From assembly GCF_011947195.1 (NCBI RefSeq), contig NZ_JAATVY010000006.1, forward strand, positions 1 to 64,000: a DNA stretch of 64,000 nt, read 5' to 3'. The notes under the pieces were generated by a model. The model had not been told where the DNA came from, did no database searches, and worked only from the letters and a program-made list of their open reading frames with translations. Position 1 is the stretch's first letter. Each line of letters begins with the position of its first letter. This DNA comes from Planosporangium thailandense. GTDB taxonomy: Bacteria > Actinomycetota > Actinomycetes > Mycobacteriales > Micromonosporaceae. Of this stretch, positions 14,432-60,865 are shown one piece after another. The position numbers were made by a program, and so were the translations under genes.

Positions 14432-14800
14432 ATGACGTTCATCTACACCGTTGACAGGGTGGGCCGGAGCGTTTCGGTGGTAACCGCGGGCGAGATGGAC
14501 GTCTCCGCCGCCGGTCCGTTCGGCACCATGCTGTGCCGGCTGGCCGAGTCGGAGCCGACCGGGCTGATCGAGGTTGACCTCGCGAGCCTGCAGTTCATCG
14601 ACTCCACCGGGGTCGCCGCCCTCAACCGGGCGTACCGCACGACCAGCCGTAACGGCTGCGTACTCATGGTGACGAACGCGACCGGGCTCGTCCGGCGGGT
14701 GCTCGAACTGACCGGAGCGCTCGCGCACCTCGCGCCCGACGCTGGGGCCGGCGACGGCCGCCGGTCGGTGGTGAGCGACACCGGCAGGCCGTCGGCGTAG
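14432..14800 (+). CDS. STAS-domain anti-sigma factor antagonist
   Basis: A 122-residue SpoIIAA/RsbV-like STAS protein. The phosphorylatable serine is in the conserved loop FIDSTGVAALNRA; AGEMDVSAAGPF is the first strand-helix. Such proteins bind and titrate an anti-sigma kinase (RsbW/SpoIIAB type) when dephosphorylated. ATG 14432 follows GGGGAGG by three bases, slightly close; an in-frame ATG at 14396 has no ribosome binding site. Alone rather than beside its kinase, it may feed into the sigma factor at 56.1-56.9 kb or another one. The C-terminal 20 residues are disordered. Confidence 0.85.
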   Translation: MTFIYTVDRVGRSVSVVTAGEMDVSAAGPFGTMLCRLAESEPTGLIEVDLASLQFIDSTGVAALNRAYRTTSRNGCVLMVTNATGLVRRVLELTGALAHLAPDAGAGDGRRSVVSDTGRPSA

Positions 14801-15634: not shown

Positions 15635-15658
15635 GTTTCGCCTGATCCCATGCGGGTA
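15635..15658 (+). promoter_or_regulatory. SigB/SigF-type promoter, GTTT-N15-GGGTA
   Basis: GTTT (15635-15638), a 15-nt spacer and GGGTA (15654-15658) match the GNNT-N14-16-GGGTAY form reported for Streptomyces SigB-type promoters. The element lies 98 bp upstream of the zinc dehydrogenase ATG. Confidence 0.65.
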
Positions 15659-42199: not shown

Positions 42200-42454
42200 G
42201 AAGACCGTCTCCTGCCCTTTCTCGTCGTCGCCGCGGTCGGCGGGCGCACGATCCACGCGGAGGCCAGGGGAGGCACGCGCGAACGGCCCGGGCCACGGAC
42301 GGGCGGTGTGTACCTGCAGGTCCACCCACCACATCGCGTTTTCTGGAATCAGTCAAGACTAGACGCGTGGCGACACGCCCGGCGAACGCATCATCATTTC
42401 GAGATCGCGCAGCCGGCTCGCGATCGAACGCGGGCCGCCACCCGGGACGGGGAT

Positions 42455-42703
42455 CTACTCGCGGTTCTCCCGGCTACCCGGGGCCTCCAGGCTGCGCACC
42501 ACCAGACCCAGACCGTGCAGCGCGTCCTGGCGCTGCTTGTACTGCAACTCCTCGCGGCCCAGCAGCGCCGCGTACTCGGCCTCCTGCTCGGGCGTGGGAA
42601 CCGCCGAGGTCCGGTCGAGGAACTCGACCATCTCCCGCGCCACCGCCGCGTACCTGCGCGCGGCCTCCCGCGCCTGGTGCAGGGCATCGACCTCGTCGAC
42701 CAT
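42455..42703 (-). CDS. Small coiled-coil protein (82 aa)
   Basis: An 82-residue acidic, highly helical protein: MVDEVDALHQAREAARRYAA then VAREMVEFLDRTSAVPTPEQ and EYAALLGREELQYKQRQDAL. Heptad-like spacing suggests one or two coiled coils. ATG 42703 follows GGGAGG at about nine bases. A GGTT-N15-GGGTA element lies 41 bp upstream inside the end of the GT2 gene, so it may be stress induced. No known family recognised. Confidence 0.65.
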   Translation of the reverse strand: MVDEVDALHQAREAARRYAAVAREMVEFLDRTSAVPTPEQEAEYAALLGREELQYKQRQDALHGLGLVVRSLEAPGSRENRE

Positions 42704-42742: not shown

Positions 42743-43693
42743 TTACCCGCCGGCGCCCCGGCCAACCCCGCCGGCCGCCGTCGATGCCGGCGCTCCCGCC
42801 GCGCCGGCGGCGTCCGGCGAGTACCCGTGCCGCGCCTCAGCCGCCACCAGCCGTGCCAGCGCCGCCTCGACCGCCGGGTCCGCCGCCCGCCGGCCGCGCA
42901 GCGCGCGGGGCAGCCGCACGGCGAACTGGCCCAGCGCCGTGCGCGCGACCGGATCCGTCACCGCGTTGCGCAGCAGCGGCGCCGTCTCGGCGAGCGCGAC
43001 CCGCAGCGGTCGGCGCATCCACGCCGTCAGAGCCCGGTTACGGGCGGCGAGCGCCCGCTTGCGCCCGCGGTCACCACCGGGCTGCGGATGGTGGTGCGCC
43101 ACCACGTCGGCGCAGTACGCCAGCCCCCAGCCGGCTGCGGCCAGGTCGTACGCCAGCCGGGCCTCCTCCCCCATGAAGAACACAACCGGGTCGAACCCCC
43201 CGACGGCCAGGTACGCCTCCCGCCGCACCACCGCCGCGCACGCCAGGAAACCCAGCACGCTCGGGCCGGGCAGGTCGTCGGCGCCCTCCAGTGGCGCCGC
43301 CGCCATGAACGCCGCCATGGGGTCGAGCCGCTCGGACGGCCCGACCAGGGTGCGGGCCGCGATCAGCGCCAGCCGGGGGTACGCGTCCAGCAGCGCCTCG
43401 GCGCGCGCCAGCGCCCCGTCGGCCCACCACGAGTCGTCGTCGGCGAACGCGACGTACGGGGTGTCGGCCGCGGCCACGCCCACGTTGCGCGCCACCGCGC
43501 CGAGATTGCGCTCCAGCGGGATCACCCGTACCTCGGGGAACGCCCGGGCGAGCCGCTCCCGCGTGCCGTCGGTCGAGCCGTTGTCGACGACGATCACGGA
43601 CGGCCGCTCGGACAACGCGCGCAGCCGCGCGAGCGTGCGCTCCAGCCCGACAGCGCGGTCACGGCTGGCGATCACGACGGTGACACGACCCAT
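42743..43693 (-). CDS. Glycosyltransferase family 2
   Basis: A 316-residue GT-A enzyme. VTVVIASRDRAVGLERTLAR, IVVDNGSTDGTRE and the metal-binding AFADDDSWW (DxD region) are the GT2 hallmarks, with LGAVARNVGVAAADTPYVAFAD between. GFDPVVFFMGEEARLAYDLAAAGW is the acceptor segment of rhamnosyl- or similar transferases. ATG 43693 is used; upstream codons are not conserved. The protein is cytoplasmic with an Ala/Gly-rich end. It is not in a glycan operon here; its product may be a glycolipid or surface polymer. Confidence 0.85.
   Translation of the reverse strand: MGRVTVVIASRDRAVGLERTLARLRALSERPSVIVVDNGSTDGTRERLARAFPEVRVIPLERNLGAVARNVGVAAADTPYVAFADDDSWWADGALARAEALLDAYPRLALIAARTLVGPSERLDPMAAFMAAAPLEGADDLPGPSVLGFLACAAVVRREAYLAVGGFDPVVFFMGEEARLAYDLAAAGWGLAYCADVVAHHHPQPGGDRGRKRALAARNRALTAWMRRPLRVALAETAPLLRNAVTDPVARTALGQFAVRLPRALRGRRAADPAVEAALARLVAAEARHGYSPDAAGAAGAPASTAAGGVGRGAGG
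42744..42767 (-). promoter_or_regulatory. SigB/SigF-type promoter, GGTT-N15-GGGTA
   Basis: On the minus strand GGTT (42767-42764), 15 nt, then GGGTA (42748-42744), 41 bp before the coiled-coil gene start and overlapping the last codons of the GT2 gene. Confidence 0.5.
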
Positions 43694-43764: not shown

Positions 43765-44136
43765 TCAGTCGACCGCCGGCCCGGCTTGCACCGCCGGCCC
43801 GTCGTCGGCGGCGCGGACCACGAACACCCGGTTGAGGCCGGTGATCGTCAGCAGGTGCTGCACCCGCTGAACCGGGGCGTACAGCTCCAGCCCGCCCCCC
43901 GCCGCCATCAGGCGCTTGTGGAAGCCGACCAGCAACGCGAGGCCCGTGGAGTCGCAGAACGTCACCTGCGACAGGTCCAGCACGAGCCGGCCGCCAGCGG
44001 ACAGGTACGGCGCGGCGGCCCGGCGCAACTGGTCGGCGGTGCTGATGTCCAGCTCGCCGACAATGCGCAGCACGGTGCCACCATTCGGCTCGCCGGACCG
44101 CTCCTCGACCAGCAGCTCGGCACGGGGGATCGCCAT
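43765..44136 (-). CDS. STAS-domain anti-sigma factor antagonist
   Basis: A 123-residue STAS protein: LRIVGELDISTADQLRRAAA, LVLDLSQVTFCDSTGLALLV (phospho-acceptor Ser in CDSTGL) and a C-terminal hydrophobic LLTITGLNRVFVV. ATG 44136 has GGGAG five bases upstream. A second STAS gene follows on the same strand upstream by 85 bp. Paired antagonists without their kinase suggest a partner-switching cascade in trans, perhaps acting on the sigma factor at 56 kb. Confidence 0.85.
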   Translation of the reverse strand: MAIPRAELLVEERSGEPNGGTVLRIVGELDISTADQLRRAAAPYLSAGGRLVLDLSQVTFCDSTGLALLVGFHKRLMAAGGGLELYAPVQRVQHLLTITGLNRVFVVRAADDGPAVQAGPAVD

Positions 44137-44221: not shown

Positions 44222-44542
44222 TCACCCTTCCACGCCGAAGGTGTCCGTCAGCCCCATCATCCGCAGCTGCTGCCGGACAAAGGGTGCCGGATTGGTCACC
44301 GCGAACCCCACCCCGACCGAACGCGCGGCGTTCTGACCGGCCGCCAACGCTCCGATACCGCTGGAGTCGATGAACGTCACGTGCATCAGGTCCACCACGA
44401 TGCGCACCGGCCGCACGGCGGTCGCGGTCGCGACGAGTTGGCTGCGGAGCTGGTCGGCGTGGGCGACGTCGATCTCGCCGCGAATCTCGATGACGACCGT
44501 GCCGTCCGCGAGGCGGCGCTGGTTCATCATCCATTCGGCCAC
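44222..44542 (-). CDS. STAS-domain anti-sigma factor antagonist
   Basis: A 106-residue STAS protein with VVIEIRGEIDVAHADQLRSQ, RIVVDLMHVTFIDSSGIGAL (Ser pair DSSG) and VTNPAPFVRQQLRMMGLTDTF. Start GTG 44542 has GGAG six bases upstream and is preferred over TTG 44554. It is probably co-transcribed with the STAS gene at 43765-44136. The two share little beyond the family motifs, so they are ancient paralogues with separate partners. Confidence 0.84.
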   Translation of the reverse strand: MAEWMMNQRRLADGTVVIEIRGEIDVAHADQLRSQLVATATAVRPVRIVVDLMHVTFIDSSGIGALAAGQNAARSVGVGFAVTNPAPFVRQQLRMMGLTDTFGVEG

Positions 44543-44637: not shown

Positions 44638-44661
44638 GCTTCACCGCCGCACATTCGGGTA
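44638..44661 (+). promoter_or_regulatory. SigB/SigF-type promoter, GCTT-N15-GGGTA
   Basis: GCTT (44638-44641), 15 nt, GGGTA (44657-44661), 12 bases before the HAD gene ATG, which would give an almost leaderless transcript. Confidence 0.45.
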
Positions 44662-44672
44662 ACGGTCGGTCC

Positions 44673-45350
44673 ATGAACGAATCCACTCGCGGCGTGCTCT
44701 TCGATGTCGACGGCACCCTGGTCGACACCAACTACCTGCACACCGTCACCTGGTGGGAAGCGCTCCGGCAGGCCGGACACCGAGTCCCGATGGCGCGGAT
44801 ACACCGCGCGATCGGCATGGGCTCGGACAAGCTGCTCGACCATCTGCTCGGACCCGACCACGACCGGTCGGCCGACTCCACGATGCGGGACGCCCATCTC
44901 GCGCTGTACACCACGTACTGGGAGCGGCTGAGCCCGCTACCCGGCGCGGCCGCCCTGCTGCGCGCCTGTGCGTCCCGTGGCCTGCGGGTGGCTCTGGCCT
45001 CCTCGGCGTCGGAGAAGGAGCTGTCCGCCCTGCGACGGGCGCTCGACGCCGACGCTGTCATCCACACGGCGACCAGCAAGGACGACGCCGGGTCGAGCAA
45101 GCCCGACCCGGACATCCTTACGGTGGCGCTGCGCAAGGCCGGCCTGTCGCCCGACCACGCCCTGCTGGTCGGCGACTCGGTGTGGGACGTCGTGGCTGCC
45201 GACCGCGCCGGCCTGCGGTGCATCGGCGTCACCTGCGGCGGCACGAGCGCCGCCGAGCTACGCGACGCCGGCGCGATCGAGACCTACGACGACCCGGAGG
45301 CGCTGTGCGCGAGCCTCGACGCCTCGGCGATCGCGAAGATGGCCGGCTAG
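44673..45350 (+). CDS. HAD-superfamily phosphatase (beta-phosphoglucomutase/phosphatase-like)
   Basis: A 225-residue HAD hydrolase. Motif I is GVLFDVDGTLVDT, motif II VALASSASEK, motif III K in GSSKPDPDI, and motif IV GDSVWDVVAADRAG. The helical cap between residues 20 and 85 is the C1 type of beta-phosphoglucomutase and phosphoglycolate phosphatase relatives. ATG 44673. It should dephosphorylate a small metabolite. It is divergent from the STAS genes and convergent with a GGDEF gene. Confidence 0.87.
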   Translation: MNESTRGVLFDVDGTLVDTNYLHTVTWWEALRQAGHRVPMARIHRAIGMGSDKLLDHLLGPDHDRSADSTMRDAHLALYTTYWERLSPLPGAAALLRACASRGLRVALASSASEKELSALRRALDADAVIHTATSKDDAGSSKPDPDILTVALRKAGLSPDHALLVGDSVWDVVAADRAGLRCIGVTCGGTSAAELRDAGAIETYDDPEALCASLDASAIAKMAG

Positions 45351-47001: not shown

Positions 47002-47025
47002 GTGTCAGAAACGGGCCGATGGGTA
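47002..47025 (+). promoter_or_regulatory. Possible SigB/SigF-type promoter, GTGT-N15-GGGTA
   Basis: GTGT (47002-47005), 15 nt, GGGTA (47021-47025), ten bases before ATG 47036. One mismatch from GTTT but still GNNT. Confidence 0.4.
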
Positions 47026-47035
47026 GATCTGTCGT

Positions 47036-47629
47036 ATGCGACGCCTGGACAACTACCCCGAGCCCATTTCCGATCCGGAGTCCGAGGGCCTGCCGGAGGT
47101 CGCCGACGACGACCACATCTCCATGGAGGAGAACCGCGCGGAGTCGCCGCGCGAGGCGGACGGCCCCGATCCGGCGCCCCTGCCCGGCCGCGCGCCGATG
47201 GCCATCGACCGGTACGGGGTGACGCCCGAGGAGGCCCGGATCGGCGAGTCGCTGGACTACAAACTGGCCCAGGAGGAGCCGCTCGAGGAGGGCGGCGGCG
47301 TGGCCAGCCCGACGGCGAGCGCACAGGCGGACCTCGTCGACAACCTCCCCGGTGACAACGTCGACCTGGGCAACGACCAGGTGGATCGGCCGGCCCCGGA
47401 AGCCGGCCTGGCCGACGACGCGCCGCTGGAGCCGGACGACTCGCCGGTTTCGCTGTACGACCGGCCCGGCGTGATCCCCGGCGACGACCGGCCGGTGGGA
47501 CGGCTGGTCCAGCCCGACGAAGGCGCGCACGAGGACCGGGAGAAGGACGCGGTCGCCTGGGACGCGGGCCCGGACGGCGGCGGGCCGACCGCCGAGGAGA
47601 TGGCGATCCACGAGGTCTCCGAGCCGTAA
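47036..47629 (+). CDS. DUF5709 family acidic protein
   Basis: A 197-residue, highly acidic and probably disordered protein matching DUF5709: RYGVTPEEARIGESLDYKLAQEEP, then GRLVQPDEGAHEDREKDAVAWDAG and GPTAEEMAIHEV are the family blocks as remembered. No hydrophobic segment. ATG 47036. The family is confined to Actinobacteria and of unknown function; membership in stress regulons is suggested here only by the GGGTA element upstream. A perfect palindrome terminator follows. Confidence 0.8.
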   Translation: MRRLDNYPEPISDPESEGLPEVADDDHISMEENRAESPREADGPDPAPLPGRAPMAIDRYGVTPEEARIGESLDYKLAQEEPLEEGGGVASPTASAQADLVDNLPGDNVDLGNDQVDRPAPEAGLADDAPLEPDDSPVSLYDRPGVIPGDDRPVGRLVQPDEGAHEDREKDAVAWDAGPDGGGPTAEEMAIHEVSEP

Positions 47630-49259: not shown

Positions 49260-50855
49260 TCACCGGTAGAGTGTGCGCTGAGCGGCCCTGACCCCGGCCC
49301 CGTACAGGCCGCCGACCAGCGCACGGTCGCGGGCCAGCGCGGCCCGTGCCGCGTTCGCGCCGGGCGCGCCGTGCACTCCCCCACCGGGATGGGCGCTGGA
49401 GCTGGCCAGGTAGAGCCGGTCCACCGGGGTGTCCGCCCGGCCCAGCCCCGGCACGGGCCGGAAGACGAGCTGCTGGTACGGCGCGGACGTACCGCCGTTG
49501 ATGGCGCCGCCGACCAGGCTCGGGTCCGTCGCCTCCAGCCGGTCGGGCCCCGCCACGTACCGGCCCACGATCAGGTCGCGGAAGCCGGGCGCGGCATCCT
49601 CCAGCACCCGCTCCATCCGGTCGACGTGCGCGTCGACCTCGGCGGCCGGCCACTTCTGACGTCGCGGCAGGTGGGTGTACGCCCACATCGCCTCGGTACC
49701 GGCCGGCGACCGGGTCGGGTCCGACGTGGTCATCTGGCCGGCGAGCATGAACGGCTGCCGCGGGACCCGCCCGGCGTTGAGGTCGGCGGCGAACTCGACC
49801 AGGCCGGCCGTGTCGGCCCGCAGATGCACCGTACCCGCGCCGCGCGCCGCCCCGCCGCGCCAGGGCACCGGCCCCGACAGCGCCCAGTCCACTTTGACCG
49901 TGGCGTAGTCCCACCGGAAGCGCTCCAGGTCGGCGACGAACCGGGCGGGCAGGTGGTTGGCGCCCACGAGGTCGCAGAAGAGGATCGGCGCCGGCACGTC
50001 GGCGAGCACCGCCCGCCGGGCCCGCCAGTGCCGGCCGTCCGCGCCGCGCACGCCGAGCGCCCGGCCCGCGCCGACGATCACCCGGGTCACCGGCGTGTCG
50101 AGCACGACCTCACCGCCCCGCGCGCGTAGCCGCTCGGCCAGCGCGTCCACCAGGCGGGCGGCGCCGCCGACCGGCACCGGGAAGCCGTACTGCTGGCCGA
50201 GCATGGCCAGCAGCCACGCGTACACGCCGCTGCCGCTCTCGGCCGGCGACAGGTCGGTGTGCAGCGCCATCCCGGCCAGCAGCACCCGGCCGCCCTCACC
50301 GGCGAACGTCTCCTGCCCGAGCACGCGCGCCGGCAGCAGCAGCCGGCGGGCCAGCCGCAGCAGTCCGGCGGCCCGCAGCCGGCGGTACAGGTCCAGCCCC
50401 GGGCGTACCGGTGGGAACGGGTTCAGCACGGCCGCGAGCAGCGCGTCGCCGATCTCGCGCCACCGCTCGTACTCGGCGCGCCAACGCCGCCCGTCGCCGG
50501 GCGCGAACTCGTCCAGCGACGCGGCCGTCACGTCGACGTCGCGGTCGAGGACGACCGCTCGCCCGTCGGGCAACAGGTGGGCCAGTACGTGCGGGGCGTT
50601 GGTCCAGCGCAGCCCGTACCCGGTCAGGTCCAGAGAGGACAGTACCGGCGAGGCGTAGCCGAGCGGATAGAACGCGCTGCACACGTCGGCCTCGAAGCCG
50701 GGCGCGGCCAGCGGCGCCGACCGGACCGCGCCGCCGAGACGGTCGGTGGCCTCGATGACCACCACGTCCCAGCCGGCGTCGGCCAGCAGGTTCGCCGCCA
50801 CCAGACCGTTGTGGCCACCGCCGACCACCACCGCGTCGACGGTCTCGCCCGCCAT
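49260..50855 (-). CDS. NAD(P)/FAD-dependent oxidoreductase, phytoene-desaturase-like
   Basis: A 531-residue FAD enzyme of the phytoene desaturase/CrtI-like family. VDAVVVGGGHNGLVAANLLADAGWDVVVIEATDRLGGAVRS is the FAD loop, and LYLASSSAHPGGGVHGAPGANAA the C-terminal FAD contact. No carotenoid partner genes are near, so the substrate may be another isoprenoid or retinol-like lipid. ATG 50855 overlaps the TGA of the radical SAM gene by one base (TGATG), so translation is coupled and the two proteins are likely made together. The pair is led by a SigB-type promoter. Confidence 0.85.
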   Translation of the reverse strand: MAGETVDAVVVGGGHNGLVAANLLADAGWDVVVIEATDRLGGAVRSAPLAAPGFEADVCSAFYPLGYASPVLSSLDLTGYGLRWTNAPHVLAHLLPDGRAVVLDRDVDVTAASLDEFAPGDGRRWRAEYERWREIGDALLAAVLNPFPPVRPGLDLYRRLRAAGLLRLARRLLLPARVLGQETFAGEGGRVLLAGMALHTDLSPAESGSGVYAWLLAMLGQQYGFPVPVGGAARLVDALAERLRARGGEVVLDTPVTRVIVGAGRALGVRGADGRHWRARRAVLADVPAPILFCDLVGANHLPARFVADLERFRWDYATVKVDWALSGPVPWRGGAARGAGTVHLRADTAGLVEFAADLNAGRVPRQPFMLAGQMTTSDPTRSPAGTEAMWAYTHLPRRQKWPAAEVDAHVDRMERVLEDAAPGFRDLIVGRYVAGPDRLEATDPSLVGGAINGGTSAPYQQLVFRPVPGLGRADTPVDRLYLASSSAHPGGGVHGAPGANAARAALARDRALVGGLYGAGVRAAQRTLYR

Positions 50856-51883
50856 CAGAACGTCCGCTGGTACAGCGCGCAGCCGCGGCACACCTCCGGC
50901 GGGTCGTCCGCGGCGAGCCGGCGGCGGAACTCCCGGTACGCCGGAGAGTGCCAGATCTCGGTGAAGCTGAACTCGGTCAGCCGGCCCAGCGACACCCGGT
51001 CGTCGCCCATCACCATGCAGCACGGCTGCACCACGCCCTGGCTGGTGATGTAGACCGACTCCCAGGGCCAGGTGCAGCCGGGTCGGCCGGGCTCGGGCGG
51101 TACCGCCTCCAGCCGGGGCAGCCGCAGCGTGAGGCCGTGCTCGTCGGCCACCCGCGTGGCCGCGTCGAACGCCGCGCGCGCCGACGCTGCCGACTCCGGC
51201 GTGGTCCACAGCCCTTCGGCGGCCGCGAACTCCCGGATGCCGGCGTACCGGCCGGACGGGTCGGTGTCGGAGAAGTCGTGACTGAGGTTCTGCACCCGTA
51301 GCTCGTCGACGCCGATGCTCGCCAGCAGCCGGACCAGGGCGGGCAGTTCGCCGACGTTGCGGCGCATCGCGACGAAGACCACGCGGATCCAGGGGGTGTC
51401 GCTGCCGGCGGCGCGCTTCGCGGCGACCAGGCCGGCGAGGTTGGCGACGACGGTGTCGAAGGTGGCGCCCTGCCGGATGCTCTCGTACGTGGTGGCCGCC
51501 GCCCCGTCGAGCGAGACGTGCAGCCAGTCGAGGCCGGCCGCGACGAGCGCGTCGGCGCGCCGCCGGTTGAGCAGCGTGGCGTTGGAGTTGAAGCCCACGG
51601 TCAATCCGCGCGCCTTCGCCCGCCGCACCTGGTCGATCAGGTACGGCGACAGCAGCGGCTCGCCGAGCCCCTGCATGGTGAGCCGGCGCAGCGTGGGCAC
51701 CCCGTCCAGGATCCGCTCGAACAGCTCCGGAGTCATCGCGCCGGCCAGCTTGTTCACCGGAGGCTTGTAGCTGACCAGGCACATGGTGCACCGCAGGTTG
51801 CACGCCGACGTGATCTCCACCTGAAGCTCGGCGGGGAGCGGTGGCGCATCGATCCACGGTGGTGCCGTCTCCACTACGGTCAT
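50855..51883 (-). CDS. Radical SAM protein with SPASM-like C terminus
   Basis: A 342-residue radical SAM enzyme. The [4Fe-4S]/SAM motif is CNLRCTMC (residues ~29-36), GLGEPLL is the SAM-binding GGE-like segment, and NSNATLL and SLDGAAATTYESIR follow. The C-terminal Cys cluster (GCTWPWESVYITSQGVVQPCC and VCRGCALY) is SPASM/twitch-like and would hold extra Fe-S. Such enzymes modify peptides, sugars or alkyl chains. ATG 51883 follows AAAGGAG. No precursor peptide gene was seen nearby, which argues against a RiPP and for a small-molecule or lipid substrate together with the coupled FAD oxidoreductase. Confidence 0.87.
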   Translation of the reverse strand: MTVVETAPPWIDAPPLPAELQVEITSACNLRCTMCLVSYKPPVNKLAGAMTPELFERILDGVPTLRRLTMQGLGEPLLSPYLIDQVRRAKARGLTVGFNSNATLLNRRRADALVAAGLDWLHVSLDGAAATTYESIRQGATFDTVVANLAGLVAAKRAAGSDTPWIRVVFVAMRRNVGELPALVRLLASIGVDELRVQNLSHDFSDTDPSGRYAGIREFAAAEGLWTTPESAASARAAFDAATRVADEHGLTLRLPRLEAVPPEPGRPGCTWPWESVYITSQGVVQPCCMVMGDDRVSLGRLTEFSFTEIWHSPAYREFRRRLAADDPPEVCRGCALYQRTF

Positions 51884-51918: not shown

Positions 51919-51973
51919 TACCCAGCGAGGCGCCGGCGAACCGCCAGGGGTTTGGCGTCGGCGGCCTCGGGTA
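51919..51973. promoter_or_regulatory. Divergent pair of SigB/SigF-type promoters
   Basis: Minus strand: GGTT (51942-51939), 15 nt, GGGTA (51923-51919), 36 bp before the radical SAM start. Plus strand: GTTT (51950-51953), 15 nt, GGGTA (51969-51973), 13 bases before the recQ ATG. The two elements sit back to back in a 103-bp gap. Confidence 0.65.
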
Positions 51974-51986
51974 AGGCCGAAGGTCG

Positions 51987-53615
51987 ATGGACGTGACGGT
52001 GGCGCTGCGCTCGGCGGCTCGGGAGCGCTTCGGGTGGCAGGAACTGCGCCCCGAGCAGGAGATCGCGATGCGGGCGCTGATGGCCGGTCGGGACGCCCTC
52101 GTTGTCGCGCCGACCGGCGGCGGCAAGTCGGCGATCTACCAGGTACCCGGGACGCTGCTCGACGGTCCGACGATCGTGATCTCTCCGCTGCTGGCGCTGC
52201 AGGCCGACCAGATCGCGGGGCTGGCCCGCCGCGACGACGAGGCCCTCGCCGCCGCCCGGCTCAGCTCGGCGGAGAGCGCGTCCGAGCAGCGCGAGGTGCT
52301 CGAGGAGGCGTCTGGCGGGGAGGTCGAGTACATCTTCGTCACCCCCGAACAGCTCGCCGACCCGCGGCGGCTCGCGGCGATCCGCGCCGCCCGGCCCAGC
52401 CTCGTCGCGGTCGACGAGGCGCACTGCATCTCCGCCTGGGGGTACGACTTCCGCCCCGACTACCTTCAGCTCGGGCGTGCGGTGGCAGAGCTGGGCCACC
52501 CGCCGGTGGTCGCGCTCACCGCCACCGCCTCCCCGCCCGTACGCGAGGACATCCTCGACCGGCTGGGCCTGCGCGACCCCGAGGTGGTGATCACCGGGCT
52601 GGACCGGCCGAACATCTTCCTGGAGGCGGTCCAGTGCGTCGACGAGGAGCAGCGGTGGCAGCGCCTGCTCGATCGCCTCCAGCAGTCGACCCCGCCCGGC
52701 ATCGTGTACGTGTCCACCCGGCGCGCCGCCGAGGAGCTGGCGGAGTGGCTGACCGGCGCCGGCCAGCCTTCGACCGCGTACCACGGCGGGATGGCGCTAC
52801 GCGAGCGCCGCCGGCGCCACCGGGCGTTCCTGGCCGACGAGATACCGGTGATGGTGGCCACCAGCGCCTTCGGGATGGGCATCGACAAGCGCAACATCCG
52901 GTGGGTCAACCACGTCGCCCTGCCCGACTCCCCCGACAGCTACCTGCAGGAGATCGGCCGCGCCGGCCGAGACGGCGAGCCGGCGCAGGCGCTGCTGCTG
53001 TTCCGCACCGAGGACACCGGCCTGCGCAAGTTCTTCACCGGCGGTCTCCCAGCCCACTCCGAGCTCGTCCGGCTCGCCGCGGCGGTACGCTCCGGCCCGC
53101 TGTCCCGCGCGGAGCTGCGCGAGCGGACCGGGCTGGGGCCTCGCAAGCTCGGCGAGCTGCTCGTCCTGCTGGAGGAGGTCGGCGCCGCGGTGCCCGGCCG
53201 CCGTGGCCGGTGGCGCGCGCCGGCCTACGCCCCCGAGCCCGATCAGGCGGCCCACGCGGCGCGCGCCCAGGCCGAGCGGCGGCAGACCGTGCAGCGTTCC
53301 CGGCTGGAGATGATGCGCAACCTGGCCGAGACGACCGCCTGCCGGGGCCAGACGTTGCTCGCCTACTTCGGCGAGCAGTTGGAGCACCCGTGCGGGCACT
53401 GCGACAACTGCCTGTCCGGCGCGGCCCGGGAGGTGGCCGACGCCGGCGCCGGCGGGCCCTTCCCGGTGCACAGCCGGGTCTCGCACGCCGAGTGGGGTGA
53501 CGGCACGGTGCTGCGCTACGAGGGCGATCACATGACGGTGCTCTTCGACGAGGTCGGCTACAAGACGCTGTCCGTACCGGTCGTGGAAGAGCAGGAGCTA
53601 CTGAGCTTGAGCTAG
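51987..53615 (+). CDS. recQ: RecQ-type ATP-dependent DNA helicase with DUF3553 tail
   Basis: A 542-residue 3'-5' helicase. Walker A APTGGGKS (41-48), DEAH box (143-146) in AVDEAHCISAWG, ALTATASPPVR and GRAGRDG form the RecA-like core. The zinc-binding domain shows the four Cys in TACRGQTLLAYFGEQ and CGHCDNC. Instead of an HRDC domain the chain ends with HSRVSHAEWGDGTVLRYEGD, matching DUF3553, a small SH3-like DNA-binding module known from actinobacterial helicases. It unwinds recombination and replication intermediates. A GTTT-N15-GGGTA element directly upstream predicts stress-sigma control. The LLM gene follows 15 bp later. Confidence 0.9.
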   Translation: MDVTVALRSAARERFGWQELRPEQEIAMRALMAGRDALVVAPTGGGKSAIYQVPGTLLDGPTIVISPLLALQADQIAGLARRDDEALAAARLSSAESASEQREVLEEASGGEVEYIFVTPEQLADPRRLAAIRAARPSLVAVDEAHCISAWGYDFRPDYLQLGRAVAELGHPPVVALTATASPPVREDILDRLGLRDPEVVITGLDRPNIFLEAVQCVDEEQRWQRLLDRLQQSTPPGIVYVSTRRAAEELAEWLTGAGQPSTAYHGGMALRERRRRHRAFLADEIPVMVATSAFGMGIDKRNIRWVNHVALPDSPDSYLQEIGRAGRDGEPAQALLLFRTEDTGLRKFFTGGLPAHSELVRLAAAVRSGPLSRAELRERTGLGPRKLGELLVLLEEVGAAVPGRRGRWRAPAYAPEPDQAAHAARAQAERRQTVQRSRLEMMRNLAETTACRGQTLLAYFGEQLEHPCGHCDNCLSGAAREVADAGAGGPFPVHSRVSHAEWGDGTVLRYEGDHMTVLFDEVGYKTLSVPVVEEQELLSLS

Positions 53616-53630
53616 TCGGGAGGATCTCTG

Positions 53631-54593
53631 GTGGTGAGCTTCGGCTACACGCTGATGTGCGAACAGGCGGGTCCGGTCCAGCTGGTCGACGACGCGGTCC
53701 GCGCCGAGCGGGCCGGCTTCGACTTCGCGGTCATCTCCGACCACTACTACCCGTGGTTGGCCGAGCAGGGGCATGCCCCGTACGCCTGGTCGGTGCTGGG
53801 CGCGGTCGCGTACGCGACCTCCCAGCTGGACCTGATGTCGTTCGTGACCAGTCCGATCCGCCGCTACCACCCGGCGGTGGTGGCGCAGAAGGCCGCGACG
53901 ATCGGCGTGATGTCCGGTGGCCGGTTCACCCTCGGCCTGGGCGCCGGGGAAAACCTCAACGAGCACGTGGTGGGCGCGTGGCCGCACGTGGCGCAGCGCC
54001 ACGACATGCTCGTGGAGGCGCTCGACATCATCCGGCCGCTGCTCGCCGGCGAGACCGTGCACCACGGCGGCGAGTACTTCGAGGTGCCCGAGGCGAAGCT
54101 GTGGGATCTGCCGGAGAACGGGGTGCCGATCGGGCTCGCGGTGTCCGGCCGGTCGTCGTGCGAGGTCGCCGGCGAGTACGCCGACGTCATGATCGCGGTC
54201 GAGCCGAAGCGGGAGCTGTGCGACCTGTTCGACGCGGCAGGCGGCGGCGAGAAGCCACGGTACGGGCAGGTCGCGATCTGTTACGGCCCGGACGAGGAGC
54301 AGTGCCGCAAGATCGCGTACGAGCAGTTCCGGTGGTTCGGGCTGGGCTGGCCGGTCAACGCCGAGCTGCCCAATCCCCGGTCTTTCGCGCACGCCAGCGC
54401 CTCGGTGCGGGAGGAGGACGTGGCGGCCGGGATTCCCTGCGGTCCCGACCTCGACAAGCACGTGCAGGCCGTGCGCAGGTTCGTCGACGCCGGATTCACC
54501 CACGTCGCGCTGGTACAGGTGGGCGCCGAAGGTCAGGCGGGCTTCCTGGACTTCGCCGAGCGGCAGCTCCTGCCGGCGCTGCGGCAGCTCTGA
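53631..54593 (+). CDS. LLM-class F420-dependent oxidoreductase
   Basis: A 320-residue luciferase-like TIM-barrel enzyme of the F420 group (TIGR03557-like): FGYTLMCEQAGPVQLVDDAV, FDFAVISDHYYPWLAEQGH, GRFTLGLGAGENLNEHVVG and FTHVALVQVGAE. F420-linked dehydrogenases act on sugars, alcohols or xenobiotics in actinomycetes. GTG 53631 has GGGAGG upstream. The 15-bp distance implies co-transcription with recQ, an odd but possible stress-regulon pairing. A bulged hairpin terminator follows. Confidence 0.88.
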   Translation: MVSFGYTLMCEQAGPVQLVDDAVRAERAGFDFAVISDHYYPWLAEQGHAPYAWSVLGAVAYATSQLDLMSFVTSPIRRYHPAVVAQKAATIGVMSGGRFTLGLGAGENLNEHVVGAWPHVAQRHDMLVEALDIIRPLLAGETVHHGGEYFEVPEAKLWDLPENGVPIGLAVSGRSSCEVAGEYADVMIAVEPKRELCDLFDAAGGGEKPRYGQVAICYGPDEEQCRKIAYEQFRWFGLGWPVNAELPNPRSFAHASASVREEDVAAGIPCGPDLDKHVQAVRRFVDAGFTHVALVQVGAEGQAGFLDFAERQLLPALRQL

Positions 54594-54618
54594 GCCCGAT
54601 TCCGATCAGCGGCGAAAT

Positions 54619-54667
54619 GCCGGAGAGGTCGCGACCGCGGCGGCGCCGCGTATCACGACCTCTCGGC
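54619..54667. terminator. Bidirectional hairpin terminator with one bulge
   Basis: GCCGGAGAGGTCG (54619-54631) pairs with CGACCTCTCGGC (54656-54667) leaving one bulged G, with GCGGCGGCGCCGC inside. It lies between the convergent LLM and DUF2795 genes. Confidence 0.75.
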
Positions 54668-54683
54668 TTGAGTCCGCATCAGA

Positions 54684-55094
54684 TCAGGTACGTCGCTCCT
54701 CGTTGTGGCCGCCGAGCGCGGCCCACACCTGATTGATCGTCTCGAACTCCTTGTCGGCTGGCAGAGCGGCAAGCCGGTCGATGACGTCGTCCGGCGCATC
54801 CATCTCCTCGGCGGCCGCGAGCAGATCGTCGCGATCGCCAGGCAGAGCGGACAGGGGAATGAAGCGTCCGATCCGGCTGCGCTGATCGACCTCCTCCGGG
54901 GTCATGCCGGGAGGGGCGCCGGCCCGCTCGTACCCGACGGGCGTACGCGTCGGGTTCGGCTGGTCCTCGCCGGCTGGCTCGGGATCGCGCCACTCCTCAA
55001 CGCGGGTGTCGACCCCGCCTTGAAGCATGCCGCGAACCTCGTGCTCCATCTCGTCGTCGAGCCGTGGCCCGTGCTTCGAATTGCCGCGTTCCAT
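54684..55094 (-). CDS. DUF2795 family protein
   Basis: A 136-residue soluble protein. The C-terminal half (IGRFIPLSALPGDRDDLLAA then DDVIDRLAALPADKEFETIN and VWAALGG) is a clear DUF2795 domain; the N-terminal half is charged and Pro-rich. ATG 55094 is ten bases from a GTTT-N16-GGGTA promoter, so the transcript is almost leaderless. The family is frequent in actinobacterial stress regulons, with no proven activity. It is divergent from a membrane protein gene and convergent with the LLM gene. Confidence 0.82.
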   Translation of the reverse strand: MERGNSKHGPRLDDEMEHEVRGMLQGGVDTRVEEWRDPEPAGEDQPNPTRTPVGYERAGAPPGMTPEEVDQRSRIGRFIPLSALPGDRDDLLAAAEEMDAPDDVIDRLAALPADKEFETINQVWAALGGHNEERRT

Positions 55095-55104
55095 GGGACG
55101 TGGG

Positions 55105-55129
55105 TACCCGCCACCCCACCGGGGCAAAC
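55105..55129 (-). promoter_or_regulatory. SigB/SigF-type promoter, GTTT-N16-GGGTA
   Basis: On the minus strand GTTT (55129-55126), 16 nt, GGGTA (55109-55105), ten bases before the DUF2795 ATG. Confidence 0.6.
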
Positions 55130-55254
55130 CATGGCACAAACGGGCCAAGTGGTCGGTGTACCTGGCGAACCAGGTGGGTACTTCATCAATGTCCCGCCCG
55201 TGGCGCGCCCGCACGCGCGCCGTCGACAGACGGGCGGCCCATAGGAGGTGTGCG

Positions 55255-56067
55255 ATGGCCACTGACCTTTCCCGCCGGCAGGCCGCGGACGAGCGGGCCG
55301 CCGACGACACCACGATGCGTGCCGGCTCCACCACCGGCGATGTGACCCGGGCCGACCGGGAACGGGACGGGCTCGGCGACCCGACGGTCCGCCTGGCGCG
55401 CGTGCCGTCCCAGCCGGTACCGCCCGGCGGCGCGGTGGCGCCCATGCCTCCGGGTGGTCGCCCGGTGCCGCCGGGCGGCGCGGTCGAGCCCCCGCCGGAC
55501 GCCACCCGGCCCCTCGGCACCGGGCCGGCCCCCGCGCCCGGCCCGCGACACGGCGTGGACGCCGAGGCCGACCGCGACAGCGCCGAGGCCGAGCGGGACC
55601 ACGCCGAGGCCGAGCGGGACCACGCCGCAGCGGTGCGGGCCCGTGCCGAGACCGACCGCCTCGACGCCGACCGCGCCGAACGCGCCGACGTGACCGACGC
55701 CGACGCCGACACCGCCGAGCCGGTCCGCCCGGCGCGCTGGGCGCACACCAGCTTCACGGCCACGCTGAGCCTGATCGTCGGGGTGTGCGCCACGCTCGGG
55801 GCGCTCAGCGGCCGGCTGGCCCCACTCGGCGTCGTCGCCGGCGCGGTCGGCCTGCTGCTGGCCGCGATCGGCCTGGCCGCGGTGTCCCGCCGGCACGTCA
55901 CCGGCCACCACGTCGCGCTGCTGGGGCTCGTGTTCAGCATCGCCGGCGTCGTCCTCGGCATCCTCGCCATGACCAAGTCGCTGCCGTGGCTCGACAGCGG
56001 CGCCGACAACGTCGCGCGGCTGCGCGGCTGGCTCGACGCCCACTGGTCCTGGATGCGTCGCTGGTAA
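55255..56067 (+). CDS. Two-helix membrane protein with charged repeats
   Basis: A 270-residue protein. The long N-terminal half is charged and disordered, with Pro/Gly runs (PPGGAVAPMPPGGRPVPPGG) and an Asp/Glu/Arg/Ala repeat (DRDSAEAERDHAEAERDHAA) likely to form a coiled coil. Two or three hydrophobic helices follow (about 165-250), the last in HHVALLGLVFSIAGVVLGILAMT, recalling DUF4190-type segments. ATG 55255 follows AGGAGG at six bases. The stop region is triplicated. Function unknown; it sits next to the stress sigma gene, convergent with it. Confidence 0.7.
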   Translation: MATDLSRRQAADERAADDTTMRAGSTTGDVTRADRERDGLGDPTVRLARVPSQPVPPGGAVAPMPPGGRPVPPGGAVEPPPDATRPLGTGPAPAPGPRHGVDAEADRDSAEAERDHAEAERDHAAAVRARAETDRLDADRAERADVTDADADTAEPVRPARWAHTSFTATLSLIVGVCATLGALSGRLAPLGVVAGAVGLLLAAIGLAAVSRRHVTGHHVALLGLVFSIAGVVLGILAMTKSLPWLDSGADNVARLRGWLDAHWSWMRRW

Positions 56068-56089
56068 GTCGCTGGTAAGTCGCTGGTAA
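56057..56089 (+). repeat. 11-bp triplication including the stop codon
   Basis: GTCGCTGGTAA occurs three times in a row (56057-56067, 56068-56078, 56079-56089); the first copy contains the TAA stop of the membrane protein gene. Confidence 0.93.
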
Positions 56090-56092
56090 CCG

Positions 56093-56140
56093 GATCGTGG
56101 GGAGGTCGGCGCCGCAGCGGGCGCCGACCTCCCCACGATC
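56093..56140. terminator. Strong bidirectional hairpin terminator
   Basis: GATCGTGGGGAGGTCGGCGC (56093-56112) is the exact complement of 56121-56140; the loop is 8 nt. It separates the convergent membrane protein and sigma factor genes. Confidence 0.93.
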
Positions 56141-56148
56141 CACCCTGC

Positions 56149-56946
56149 CTAGTCCGCCAGCAGCCCCTTGCGCAGGGTCCGCAGTGATTGACCGAGCAGC
56201 CGGGACACGTGCATCTGCGAGATCCCGGTCGCGGCCGCGATCTGCGCCTGGGTCATGTTCGCGAAGAACCGCAGGTGCAGGATGCGCCGTTCACGGTCGG
56301 GCAGCTGGGCGATCAACGGCCGCAGCGCCTCCCGGTGTTCGACGCCCTCCAGCAGCGGATCGGCGGCGCCGAGCACATCCATCAGTTCGGCGCCTTCGGC
56401 TCCCGGCAGCGACACCTGAAGCGACACCGTACGGTATGCCGGGGCGCAGGCCAGCCCGGCGATGATGTCCTCCTCCCGCTCCCCCAGGTCGGCGGCGAGG
56501 TCGGCGACGGTCGGGTTGCGCCCGAGCCGCTGCGTCAACGGATCCGCCTCCCGTGAGATGCGCAGCCTCAGCTCCTGCAGGCGACGCGGTACACGTACCG
56601 CCCAGCCCCGGTCGCGAAAATGTCTCTTGATCTCACCCACGATCGTCGGTACGGCGTAGCTGCCGAACGGCACCCCCCGCCGCGGGTCGTACGCGTCGAC
56701 GGCCTTGATGAGCCCGACGGTGGCGATCTGTACCAGGTCATCGAGCGGTTCCCCCCTGTTGCGGTAGCGCCGGGCCAGGCACGCTGCCAGTGGCCGGCAC
56801 ACATTGATCAGCTGCGTACGCCGCTCGGCCCGGGCCGGATCGCCCGGCACGAGTGCGCACATGCTCTCCACCAGTGCGGAGACGCGCTCGTCGAAATCCC
56901 TGTTCAACAGGGAAGACCACTGAGCGTGGTCGAGCGCGATGGTCAT
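56149..56946 (-). CDS. RNA polymerase sigma factor, SigB/SigF/SigG group
   Basis: A 265-residue group-3 sigma factor. Region 2 is LDDLVQIATVGLIKAVDAYD and GVPFGSYAVPTIVGEIKRHF, region 3 RLGRNPTVADLAADLGERE, and region 4 LPDRERRILHLRFFANMTQAQ with the helix-turn-helix IAAATGISQMHVSRLLGQSL. This is the stress/sporulation family controlled by anti-sigma kinases and STAS antagonists; three STAS genes occur elsewhere in the window but no kinase adjoins. Start ATG 56946. A GCTT-N15-GGGTA element ~330 bp upstream (57277-57300, minus strand) might serve autoregulation. Its own target motif is the GNTT-N15-GGGTA box seen around. Confidence 0.9.
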   Translation of the reverse strand: MTIALDHAQWSSLLNRDFDERVSALVESMCALVPGDPARAERRTQLINVCRPLAACLARRYRNRGEPLDDLVQIATVGLIKAVDAYDPRRGVPFGSYAVPTIVGEIKRHFRDRGWAVRVPRRLQELRLRISREADPLTQRLGRNPTVADLAADLGEREEDIIAGLACAPAYRTVSLQVSLPGAEGAELMDVLGAADPLLEGVEHREALRPLIAQLPDRERRILHLRFFANMTQAQIAAATGISQMHVSRLLGQSLRTLRKGLLAD

Positions 56947-57281
56947 TACGGTTCGCCCCCCCTGCGCACACGAACCAGCCCGCAGGGCGGGAAGCGCGCC
57001 GGGCACAAAGTGGCGGTCCCAGACCTGGCGGACTGGTCAACTTGCACAACACGGCTTTGCCTGCGTCCGATCTGGACGCGCCCGCTGCCGGCCACCCCCT
57101 ATGCGACCTCGCCCTTTGTCAGGTGGCACCGCCTCGGGAGCGGCACCTGACCGGGGCGTGGTCGCCAGACCGGCGCAACGGCACCCATCACCGTACGCCT
57201 CCACGCGTGATCAACGAGTAAACATCTTGGATACGGGTAGTCCCCATCCGGCCGGACCGGCGGCACCAGGAGGCGGTACCC
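56947..57281. promoter_or_regulatory. Divergent control region of the sigma gene and a stress-protein gene
   Basis: About 335 bp with no supported gene. GAGT-N15-GGGTA (57216-57239) lies 42 bp before the plus-strand GTG 57282. On the minus strand, a GCTT-N15-GGGTA box starts at 57300, overlapping that gene's start. Both are weaker SigB-type candidates. Confidence 0.4.
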
Positions 57282-58001
57282 GTGACCGTTCAGCCGAAGC
57301 GCCCCACTGTCGACTTCGGCACGCGCCGCGGGTCCCGTACGGTCCTGACCGACCATGCCGGTCTGGCCGGCCGTACCCCGGTCGCCTCCTTCCCCCGGTA
57401 CGCCGACGCCGAACGCACCCTCGAACTCCTCGCCCACGCCTCCTTCCCGGTGCACCGGACGGCGCTGGTCGGCGGTGATCTGAAGCTGGTCGGCGTCACC
57501 GACACGCGCGTCACCGCGGTACGGGCGGCCGCGCTGGGCGGGTGCGGCGGCCTGTGGGTCGGCGCGATGATGGCGGTGTTCAGTGTCGTGAATGGACCGG
57601 GTACCGGTGGGCTGCTGATCCGCCTGGCGTACGGGCTCCCGCTCGGCGCGCTGTCCGGCGTGGCGGTGGGGCTGTCCGCGTACGCGATCCTCGGCGACAC
57701 GCGGGGCGGTCCGCCGCACCCGCGCCTGGTCGCGACGCGGCACGAACTCCACGTCGACGCCGAGGTCGCCGCGTCGGCCTGGCGGCTGCTGCGCAAGCTC
57801 CGGCCGTCCGGCATGACGCCGGCCGATCGCGCGCCCGCGGAGGTGGTGGCGCAGCCGACCGAGCTCGTACTGATCGAGACGTTCGAGGTGGAGGACGCCC
57901 GGGCGCAGCCGGCGGGTCGAGCCGAGCCCGGGCCGGCGGCCCGGCGGGGCGTGCGCCCCGTCGAACTTCCGGCCGGCGCGACGCTGAGACCGGCACAGTG
58001 A
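57282..58001 (+). CDS. General-stress-protein-17M-like membrane protein
   Basis: A 239-residue protein. VASFPRYADAERTLELLAHASFPVHRTALVGGDLKLV fits the YflT/general stress protein 17M domain, followed by two hydrophobic helices (about 85-105 and 110-132, LWVGAMMAVFSVVNGP and YGLPLGALSGVAVGLSAYAI), then a charged Pro/Ala-rich tail. GTG 57282. It is divergent from the sigma gene and 57 bp upstream of the hemerythrin, consistent with a stress role. Exact function unknown. Confidence 0.78.
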   Translation: MTVQPKRPTVDFGTRRGSRTVLTDHAGLAGRTPVASFPRYADAERTLELLAHASFPVHRTALVGGDLKLVGVTDTRVTAVRAAALGGCGGLWVGAMMAVFSVVNGPGTGGLLIRLAYGLPLGALSGVAVGLSAYAILGDTRGGPPHPRLVATRHELHVDAEVAASAWRLLRKLRPSGMTPADRAPAEVVAQPTELVLIETFEVEDARAQPAGRAEPGPAARRGVRPVELPAGATLRPAQ

Positions 58002-58003
58002 TC

Positions 58004-58027
58004 GTTTGGGCAGGTCATCGACGGGTA
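58004..58027 (+). promoter_or_regulatory. SigB/SigF-type promoter, GTTT-N15-GGGTA
   Basis: GTTT (58004-58007), 15 nt, GGGTA (58023-58027) followed by C, starting two bases after the previous stop and ending 31 bp before the hemerythrin ATG. It is one of the best matches in the window. Confidence 0.7.
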
Positions 58028-58058: not shown

Positions 58059-58664
58059 ATGGCGTCTGATGCCGTTACCTTGATCATGAACGATCACCGT
58101 GAGCTGGAGCGCTTGTTCGGCGAGGTGCAGTCGGGCAAGGGTGACCGGCGGGCCCTCGTCGAAGAGATCGCCGCTCGGCTGACCGCCCACTCGCGCGCCG
58201 AGGAGGCGAAGGTCTATCCGGCCATCAAGAAGGCCGACCCCGCCGAGTCCGGCGACGTCGACCACGCCTACCACGAGCACGACGAGGCCGAGGAGCTGCT
58301 GCAGAAGGTCGTGCGGAACGTCGACTCGCCACAGTTCACGCAGATGTTCACGGAGTTCGTCCAGGCGGTCAAGCACCACGTGGAGGAAGAGGAGTCCAAG
58401 GTGTTGCCCGCGCTGCGGGAGGCGGTCGACAAGGACACCCTCGACAAGCTGGGCGAGGCGTTCATGACGGCGCGCGCGGGCGAGCTGCGCAAGGCCGGCT
58501 TCGACGAAGAGTCCGAATACAAGGCCGCGCAGGACAAGGGCCGCGCCGACCTGGCGGACGCGACCCGCGACGAGCTGTACGAGATGGCCAGGGAGGCCGA
58601 CATCCCGGGCCGCTCCACCATGAACAAGGAAGAGCTGAGCGAGGCGGTCAGCCGGCAGGGCTGA
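58059..58664 (+). CDS. Hemerythrin-domain protein with Rho-N/SAP-like tail
   Basis: A 201-residue protein. The helical HHE domain (about 5-145) shows the iron-ligand pattern: His13 in NDHRELER, HSRAEEAKVYP, HEHDEAEE and HHVEEEESKVLP. It likely binds a di-iron site and senses or scavenges oxygen, NO or iron. The C-terminal 40 residues (TRDELYEMAREADIPGRSTM then NKEELSEAVSR) are a Rho-N/SAP-like helical hairpin that may bind nucleic acid. ATG 58059 follows GGAGGAG. SigB-type promoter directly upstream. Confidence 0.87.
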   Translation: MASDAVTLIMNDHRELERLFGEVQSGKGDRRALVEEIAARLTAHSRAEEAKVYPAIKKADPAESGDVDHAYHEHDEAEELLQKVVRNVDSPQFTQMFTEFVQAVKHHVEEEESKVLPALREAVDKDTLDKLGEAFMTARAGELRKAGFDEESEYKAAQDKGRADLADATRDELYEMAREADIPGRSTMNKEELSEAVSRQG

Positions 58665-60780: not shown

Positions 60781-60865
60781 CGGTTTTCCACAAGGTGAAA
60801 ACGCAGGGTATCGACGTCGATCGCACAGCGCATAGGATGAGCGCCGGCTACGGGGAGGTGCATCC

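Follow-up and report, generated by a model that had tools for sequence, protein, structure and literature searches.

Short two-part boxes, GTTT followed after 15 or 16 nucleotides by GGGTA, stand in front of genes in a 64,000-nucleotide stretch of the Planosporangium thailandense genome, and here we report that they appear to be genuine start signals of a stress-response programme, conserved in evolution. The stretch (hereafter the window) covers positions 1 to 64,000 of contig NZ_JAATVY010000006.1 (C71:1-64000 in our numbering), from an assembly of 7.01 Mb in 114 contigs that is 98.5% complete and has 72% GC. Planosporangium belongs to the Micromonosporaceae, a family of antibiotic producers. 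From the sequence evidence we consider it highly probable that the boxes are SigB/SigF-class promoters of a general-stress set, read by one or more of six sigma factors of this type in the genome. The kind of programme is well known; its gene coverage in the family and the sigma factor that reads it are only partly known.

An original prediction, made from the letters of the window, had described nine such boxes as a local regulon of a neighbouring sigma factor gene at 56149. Its assignment of the boxes to SigB/SigF-type promoters is borne out by their form, position, genome-wide enrichment and conservation, all of which are established.

Boxes in the window and across the genome

The exact pattern GTTT-N14-16-GGGTA has only four matches in the window (15635, 51950, 55105 on the minus strand, and 58004), each where it had first been placed. 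Five further boxes had been described as single-base variants; all are present with 15-nucleotide spacers, and four fit that description, while the GAGT of the box at 57216 is two letters away from GTTT. Relative to our own gene calls (a simple caller giving 60 window genes, 85% coding), the gap between box and start is 97 bp for the zinc-dehydrogenase gene and 10-42 bp for the other eight noted sites, in agreement with the predicted distances of at most 100 bp and mostly at most 45 bp. A tenth site, at 55156, is conserved and additional to these nine.

15635..15658, plus strand: GTTT-N15-GGGTA box, 97 bp 5' of the zinc-dehydrogenase gene (15756-16943); pattern match
42744..42767, minus strand: GGTT-N15-GGGTA box, 40 bp 5' of a small gene (42455-42703, minus); box in 3/3 readable species
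44638..44661, plus strand: GCTT-N15-GGGTA box 5' of the HAD hydrolase gene (44673-45350); one-mismatch box in 3/3 readable species
47002..47025, plus strand: GTGT-N15-GGGTA box 5' of the DUF5709 gene (47036-47629); 3/3 readable species
51919..51942, minus strand: GGTT-N15-GGGTA box 5' of the radical-SAM/SPASM gene; 4/4 genus members
51950..51973, plus strand: GTTT-N15-GGGTA box 5' of recQ, divergent from the radical-SAM box; 4/4 genus members
55105..55129, minus strand: GTTT-N16-GGGTA box 5' of the DUF2795 gene; exact in 12/12 loci of at least 52% identity
55156..55180, plus strand: GTGT-N16-GGGTA box, 74 bp 5' of the gene at 55255-56067; 3/3 readable species; absent from the original prediction
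57216..57239, plus strand: GAGT-N15-GGGTA box 5' of the YflT-like stress gene; same form in 4/4 species
58004..58027, plus strand: GTTT-N15-GGGTA box 5' of the hemerythrin gene; exact in 4/4 genus members

For a genome-wide control we combined pattern counts with 20 systematic 20-kb stretches (400 kb, coding share ~85%) and the flanks of matches. GTTT-N15/16-GGGTA occurs 54 times in the genome against 6 times for the reversed pattern, a 9-fold excess, and has no match in the systematic 400-kb sample. Fifty of the 54 matches fall outside called genes, three inside a gene on the same strand and one antisense to a gene; 34 lie within 150 bp 5' of a called same-strand start. One match (C70:821-845, L065) is inside the 16S rRNA gene, leaving 49 intergenic sites among 53 that are not in rRNA, and a near-identical 25-mer recurs in other genomes, so that it is a standing false positive for the GTTT-GGGTA motif.

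GNTT-N14-16-GGGTA is found 270 times against 110 for its reversed form (some sites being counted twice); the 400-kb sample holds 11 matches with 5 upstream of starts, where the reversed form has 6 and 0. In its loosest version, GNNT-N14-16-GGGTAY, the pattern has 52 matches in the 400 kb; 39 of these are intragenic, and since most fall inside genes this version was dropped as evidence. The genome-wide scan that had been proposed as a check comes out in favour of the exact form, which the shuffled and intragenic controls also support; on density inside genes the exact form holds up and the loosest does not. In 20 of 25 family genomes, the count of the exact pattern is double that of the reversed control or higher.

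Proteins whose genes follow exact boxes in the rest of the genome point in the same direction. We scanned 31 of the 32 listed outside the window (L018:2839-3024 was left out), and 26 had a Pfam match, including three STAS proteins, hemerythrin, ChaB, DUF2267, CBS, a DksA-type zinc finger and rhodanese; oxidoreductases, DXP synthase, glycosyltransferases and others also occur there. This gene set resembles SigF and SigB stress regulons.

Along the genome, the 53 sites outside rRNA form clusters, with 15 neighbour pairs less than 10 kb apart against 3.8 expected, a count that none of 5000 simulations reached. When 53 sites are placed at random on the genome treated as one line, some 64-kb stretch holds at least four of them in ~42% of 5000 simulations, and because four or more per 64 kb is thus common by chance we dropped local box density as evidence. 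The window contains 4 of the 54 exact boxes, and denser stretches exist elsewhere, with 6 sites within 64 kb both at C2 and at C34. The other dense clusters of exact boxes are C2:40-102 kb (6), C34:30-84 kb (6) and C24:100-109 kb (4).

Conservation within the genus and across the family

We compared the window with 40 relatives, of which 3 are from the genus, 21 from other genera of the family and 16 from the order level. The genus mates are Planosporangium mesophilum (G001), P. flavigriseum (G002) and a metagenome-assembled genome labelled Dactylosporangium sp. RYN_162 (G003); within the limits of the contigs compared, much of the interval 33-64 kb is syntenic between them and the window. Upstream regions were comparable for 26 genes of the window, 7 of which have an orthologue in one mate, 10 in two and 9 in three, and a box was scored when it had at most one mismatch in GTTT and an exact GGGTA. 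By this measure a box is present in all readable species for 8 of the 26 genes, which have two or three mates apiece. They are HAD, DUF5709, radical SAM, recQ, DUF2795, hemerythrin, the gene at 55255 and the small gene preceding catalase. The corresponding number for 284 shuffled word pairs was 0.05 on average and 1 at most, and for five wrong spacing ranges it was 0.

All nine noted sites keep their box in every readable full-length sister-species orthologue (two to three mates each), while the spacers have mostly drifted. In 16 comparisons over six box genes, identity is 57% in the spacers (139/243) and 52% in the 20 bases 5' of the box (165/320); the box letters were kept in 144 of 144 cases, which is partly by construction, the boxes having been found by pattern. 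The HAD box takes the forms GCTT-N16 and GTAT-N16 in relatives. The zinc-dehydrogenase box is exact in 2/2 full-length genus orthologues and in 2/2 paralogues at 72% identity, and in 0/4 homologues at ~40% identity (the partial L264 is left out of the count).

Beyond the genus, the strongest conservation is at DUF2795 and recQ. Among 25 DUF2795 loci, the exact box is present in all 12 of at least 52% identity (4 genus, 8 other genera); the 13 more distant loci comprise 3 exact boxes, 2 with one mismatch, 7 without a box and 1 (L295) that was not aligned. For recQ we used 14 readable loci of at least 55% identity from family members in other genera, and found an exact box in 7 and a one-mismatch box in 1 more. 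This set leaves out L118 (a partial RecQ), RecQ loci of the order level or of lower identity, and six other-genus family genomes that have distant RecQ relatives only (best E 1e-11 to 3e-71). At the density of this genome, an exact box falls in a 430-bp window by chance with a probability of 0.0016; taking the loci as independent despite their kinship, the binomial chances are ~1e-16 for 7/14 recQ loci and ~5e-23 for 8/8 DUF2795 loci in other genera.

The remaining genes are less uniform. The hemerythrin loci number 30, with the 4 of the genus counted apart and 6 (L245-L250) failing the thresholds of 30% identity and E 1e-8; outside the genus, where many are distant homologues, 6 of 20 aligned loci have an exact box. 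Outside the genus, 21 distant YflT-like loci yielded no exact box and 4 with one mismatch. Of 354 family genomes, 46 have the radical-SAM gene at E 1e-60, in 11 of the 44 genera. The 30 readable loci of this gene (L195, which is cut, is left out, and 15 of the 46 matching genomes lie outside the set) include 6 exact boxes in six genera, 3 readable genus members with GGTT, and 2 loci whose one-mismatch box lies 220-244 bp upstream; over the 30 loci, the mean for 58 shuffled exact word pairs was 0.02 and the maximum 1. The recQ and DUF2795 genes thus keep the exact box well beyond the genus, and the radical-SAM gene does so patchily.

The FAD oxidoreductase gene adjoins the radical-SAM gene in P. 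thailandense, P. flavigriseum and G003 (3/4 genus members), not in P. mesophilum, and in 0 of 27 other-genus loci searched. The proposal that a radical SAM-FAD pair belongs to the stress regulon is not supported in that form: genus members have the box and six further genera have it in exact form, but most readable loci lack it and the FAD partner is a feature of three genus members.

A second grouping of these genes occurs in a genome of another genus (L251, G024:C12:6462-12076), with genes for hemerythrin, DUF2795, DUF1360, radical SAM, a HATPase protein and a SigB-type sigma factor. The hemerythrin is distant (29% identity); its gene has a one-mismatch box and the DUF2795 and radical-SAM genes have exact ones, all three lying with the sigma gene within 6 kb. 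The HATPase protein, which has a weak STAS match, is encoded beside the sigma gene.

The reading sigma factor and competing explanations

The window does contain the predicted sigma factor gene and three STAS-domain proteins. A palindrome stands before the sigma gene.

56149..56946, minus strand: SigB/SigF/SigG-type sigma factor gene (TIGR02980), with ATG at 56946 and a possible in-frame GTG at 57006
57063..57079, no strand assigned: palindrome GCGTCC-N5-GGACGC, candidate operator 5' of the sigma gene; 4/4 species
14432..14800, plus strand: STAS-domain protein, possible anti-sigma antagonist (domain search)
43765..44136, minus strand: STAS-domain protein (domain search)
44222..44542, minus strand: STAS-domain protein (domain search)

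The sigma factor scores 277.2 bits against a TIGR02980 cut-off of 234.35 and has Pfam sigma-70 regions 2, 3 and 4, with no region-1 match at E 0.001 and no STAS domain. It is one of six SigB/F/G sigma genes over the cut-off in the genome. The segment GISQMHVSRLL in the C-terminal region, which we take to be the -35-reading helix, is identical in the window sigma and those of C104, C1:393k and C93, and differs by one residue in C2 and by two in C1:504k. Three of the six are fused to STAS domains, C-terminally in C2:104584-106257 (L255) and C1:504669-505862 (L257) and, in the opposite order, N-terminally in C93:49369-50520 (L256).

From these known families we infer that RNA polymerase with one or more of the six SigB/SigF/SigG-type sigmas would read the boxes, as a -35 GTTT (GNNT being tolerated), a spacer of 15-16 nucleotides and a -10 GGGTA, and that stress would be the signal. 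Under stress, partner switching would set these sigmas free, with STAS antagonists acting against an anti-sigma kinase. The set so expressed would comprise, in the window, hemerythrin, probably catalase, DUF2795, the YflT-like and DUF5709 proteins, RecQ, the HAD hydrolase and the radical-SAM enzyme, and elsewhere STAS, ChaB, DUF2267, DksA-type, rhodanese and other genes, the window being one of several clusters of the regulon.

A stronger form of the local-regulon reading is that the sigma at 56149 alone, or chiefly, would read the nearby boxes, with gene order reflecting this control. Within the genus the sigma gene, the boxes and the order of the genes stay together, and the G024 cluster places a SigB-type sigma gene near hemerythrin, DUF2795 and radical-SAM genes that have boxes before them. 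Several observations nevertheless make this form of local control doubtful. Only 4 of the 54 exact boxes are in the window. In a tree of 36 rows (30 homologue loci, five own paralogues and the G024 sigma, which are not all paralogues of all genomes), the clade of the window sigma consists of the four genus members only, with 100/100 support, and among the matches listed homologues outside the genus reach at most 59% identity to it, yet boxes before recQ and DUF2795 are present in genera other than this one. The G024 sigma, considered as an orthologue by position, was rejected as it falls outside this clade. The five paralogues have near-identical C-terminal helices, and the nine homologues of Streptomyces coelicolor cross-recognise promoters (PMC8346170, part of the text). 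Finally, no GNNT-N14-17-GGGTA lies within 200 bp 5' of the sigma gene in 4/4 species (more distant promoters are possible), so there is no autoregulatory box in that interval. Because the clade was found only in the genus, the paralogue helices are near-identical and the gene has no box of its own, the neighbour is not singled out as reader: it may read the window boxes, and nothing distinguishes it from the other five. In other genera, different sigmas presumably read the boxes of recQ and DUF2795. The case is a clear one in which a sigma gene adjoining its supposed targets is in itself no evidence of control.

The palindrome is found 133-162 bp before the sigma start in 4/4 species and has 2 matches in 636 kb of the genome. 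It enters a more elaborate scenario, which we offer as speculative and rather unlikely: an ancestral Micromonosporaceae core (DUF2795 and a RecQ without HRDC domain, under GTTT-N15/16-GGGTA) would be older than any one sigma gene, a genus-specific Planosporangium sigma would have been wired into it with its own gene set by the GCGTCC-N5-GGACGC palindrome and not by a box, and the radical-SAM/FAD operon would have been taken in through the divergent promoter pair with recQ.

The boxes might instead be operators for a DNA-binding repressor or activator, and two-part conserved sites with free spacers could suit a dimeric factor. We regard this as very improbable: neither part repeats the other and they are spaced like -35 and -10 elements, orientation and distance to starts are fixed (for 11 of the 12 close DUF2795 homologues, 35-36 bp separate the beginning of the box from the start codon), and the family has promoters of this form that were tested (PMC10733313, PMC11205660, each in part). 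Least credible of all is chance, that is, a short degenerate pattern matching near starts in the intergenic DNA of a 72% GC genome, which fits the loose form, of little value alone at its frequency inside and outside genes, and is ruled out for exact and one-mismatch boxes jointly by the genus conservation test, with controls near zero, and by the 9-fold excess and mostly extragenic location of the exact form, although single sites could still be chance.

Some results weigh against the boxes being SigB/SigF-class promoters of a shared general-stress set. Twenty of the 54 exact matches have no same-strand start within 150 bp or lie inside a same-strand gene; these are positions from a simple gene caller, and one is the 16S rRNA match. 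The exact pattern is less than twice as frequent as its reverse in 5 of 25 family genomes (G007, G016, G017, G020, G022), with no excess in G016 (25 vs 25 reversed) and G017 (27 vs 48). No box was found at 6 of the 14 other-genus recQ loci or at 19 of the 30 readable radical-SAM loci. No anti-sigma kinase (HATPase) was detected among 49 of the 60 called window proteins, in a search limited to the window.

Known regulons and the genes beside the boxes

Promoters of this type have been described before, and what follows refers to the available part of each cited text. In Actinoplanes missouriensis, sigma-SsdA promoters have the form GnTT-n14-CGGGTA, two of them tested by in vitro transcription (PMC10733313). 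The family is the same, and the C-terminal antagonist domain there has a counterpart in the STAS-fused SigB-type sigmas of our genome; the spacer is 14 rather than 15-16 nucleotides, the system bears on sporangium dehiscence, and the window sigma lacks STAS. For sigma-H(As) of Actinoplanes sp. SE50/110, again from the family and with a similar motif, transcriptome data gave a -35 of G/CGTTTA/C, a spacer of ~14.6 nucleotides and a -10 of GGGTAN3T, with a suggested role in osmotic stress (PMC11205660). Unlike the window sigma gene, which is without such a box, the gene of sigma-H(As) has a promoter that the factor itself binds; the available main text of that paper contains none of the words hemerythrin, helicase and radical SAM. 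Among the matches listed, these are the two sigma regulons of such promoter type in the literature on Micromonosporaceae.

Mycobacterium smegmatis provides a precedent for part of the gene content. Its SigF regulon, with GTTT-N15/16-GGGTA, includes RecQ (MSMEG_5399), hemerythrins (MSMEG_6212, MSMEG_2415) and catalases, and MSMEG_5399 is listed as reduced in a sigF mutant and has a SigF consensus (PMC4694148). A helicase in such a regulon, which the original prediction had thought new, is for this reason already on record. The arrangement differs: RecQ there goes with MSMEG_5400-5402 under one consensus before MSMEG_5402 (PMC4694148), and recQ here has its own box, divergent from the radical-SAM gene. 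A mycobacterial consensus is also given in PMC7693655, whose available main text does not contain RecQ.

In S. coelicolor, several SigB paralogues share a GTTT/GNNT -35 and a GGGTA-like -10 with cross-recognition, the GNNT form being stated for the SigB/L/M group (PMC8346170). Nine homologues there compare with six over cut-off here, and the words helicase, radical SAM and catalase are absent from the available main text. For RecQ, SigB, Streptomyces and stress regulons together, RecQ appears, among the matches listed, only in the SIGffRid work, which places recQ under a recA-type DNA-damage motif and not under SigB (PMC2375139). Among the matches listed, DUF2795 was not mentioned and radical SAM never occurred together with GGGTA; for Planosporangium and sigma factors, the one paper among them is on the Ms1 RNA. 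Already known, then, are the promoter type in Micromonosporaceae and RecQ, hemerythrins and catalases in the M. smegmatis SigF list. New within the literature searched are the cross-genus conservation of the DUF2795 and recQ boxes and the patchy membership of the radical-SAM gene. The result is a testable list of stress-regulon members for Micromonosporaceae, and promoter conservation across genera ties the poorly understood DUF2795 and HRDC-less RecQ to the general stress response.

The genes that adjoin the boxes were annotated as follows.

40712-42334, minus strand: catalase gene, downstream of the small gene 42455-42703 (Pfam)
49260-50855, minus strand: FAD oxidoreductase gene, directly after the radical-SAM/SPASM gene
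50855..51883, minus strand: radical SAM/SPASM gene (profile search)
51987..53615, plus strand: recQ-family helicase gene with helicase core and RecQ zinc-binding domain, no HRDC match (profile search)
54684..55094, minus strand: DUF2795 gene (Pfam)
55255-56067, plus strand: gene with a DUF4190 match under the Pfam cut-off; box at 55156
57282..58001, plus strand: YflT-like stress-protein gene (24.5 bits, under the Pfam cut-off of 26.2)
58059..58664, plus strand: hemerythrin HHE-domain gene (Pfam)

The small gene at 42455-42703 (minus) has no Pfam match, 'coiled coil' being the label it was first given; in P. mesophilum it and the catalase gene are 2 kb apart. At 60783-60816, 5' of a fibronectin-type-III gene (60866), lies a conserved GTTTTCCACA...GGGTATCGACG block found in 4/4 species, in which the gap from GTTT to GGGTA is 18-19 nucleotides and unsuited to SigB spacing; it is perhaps another promoter class.

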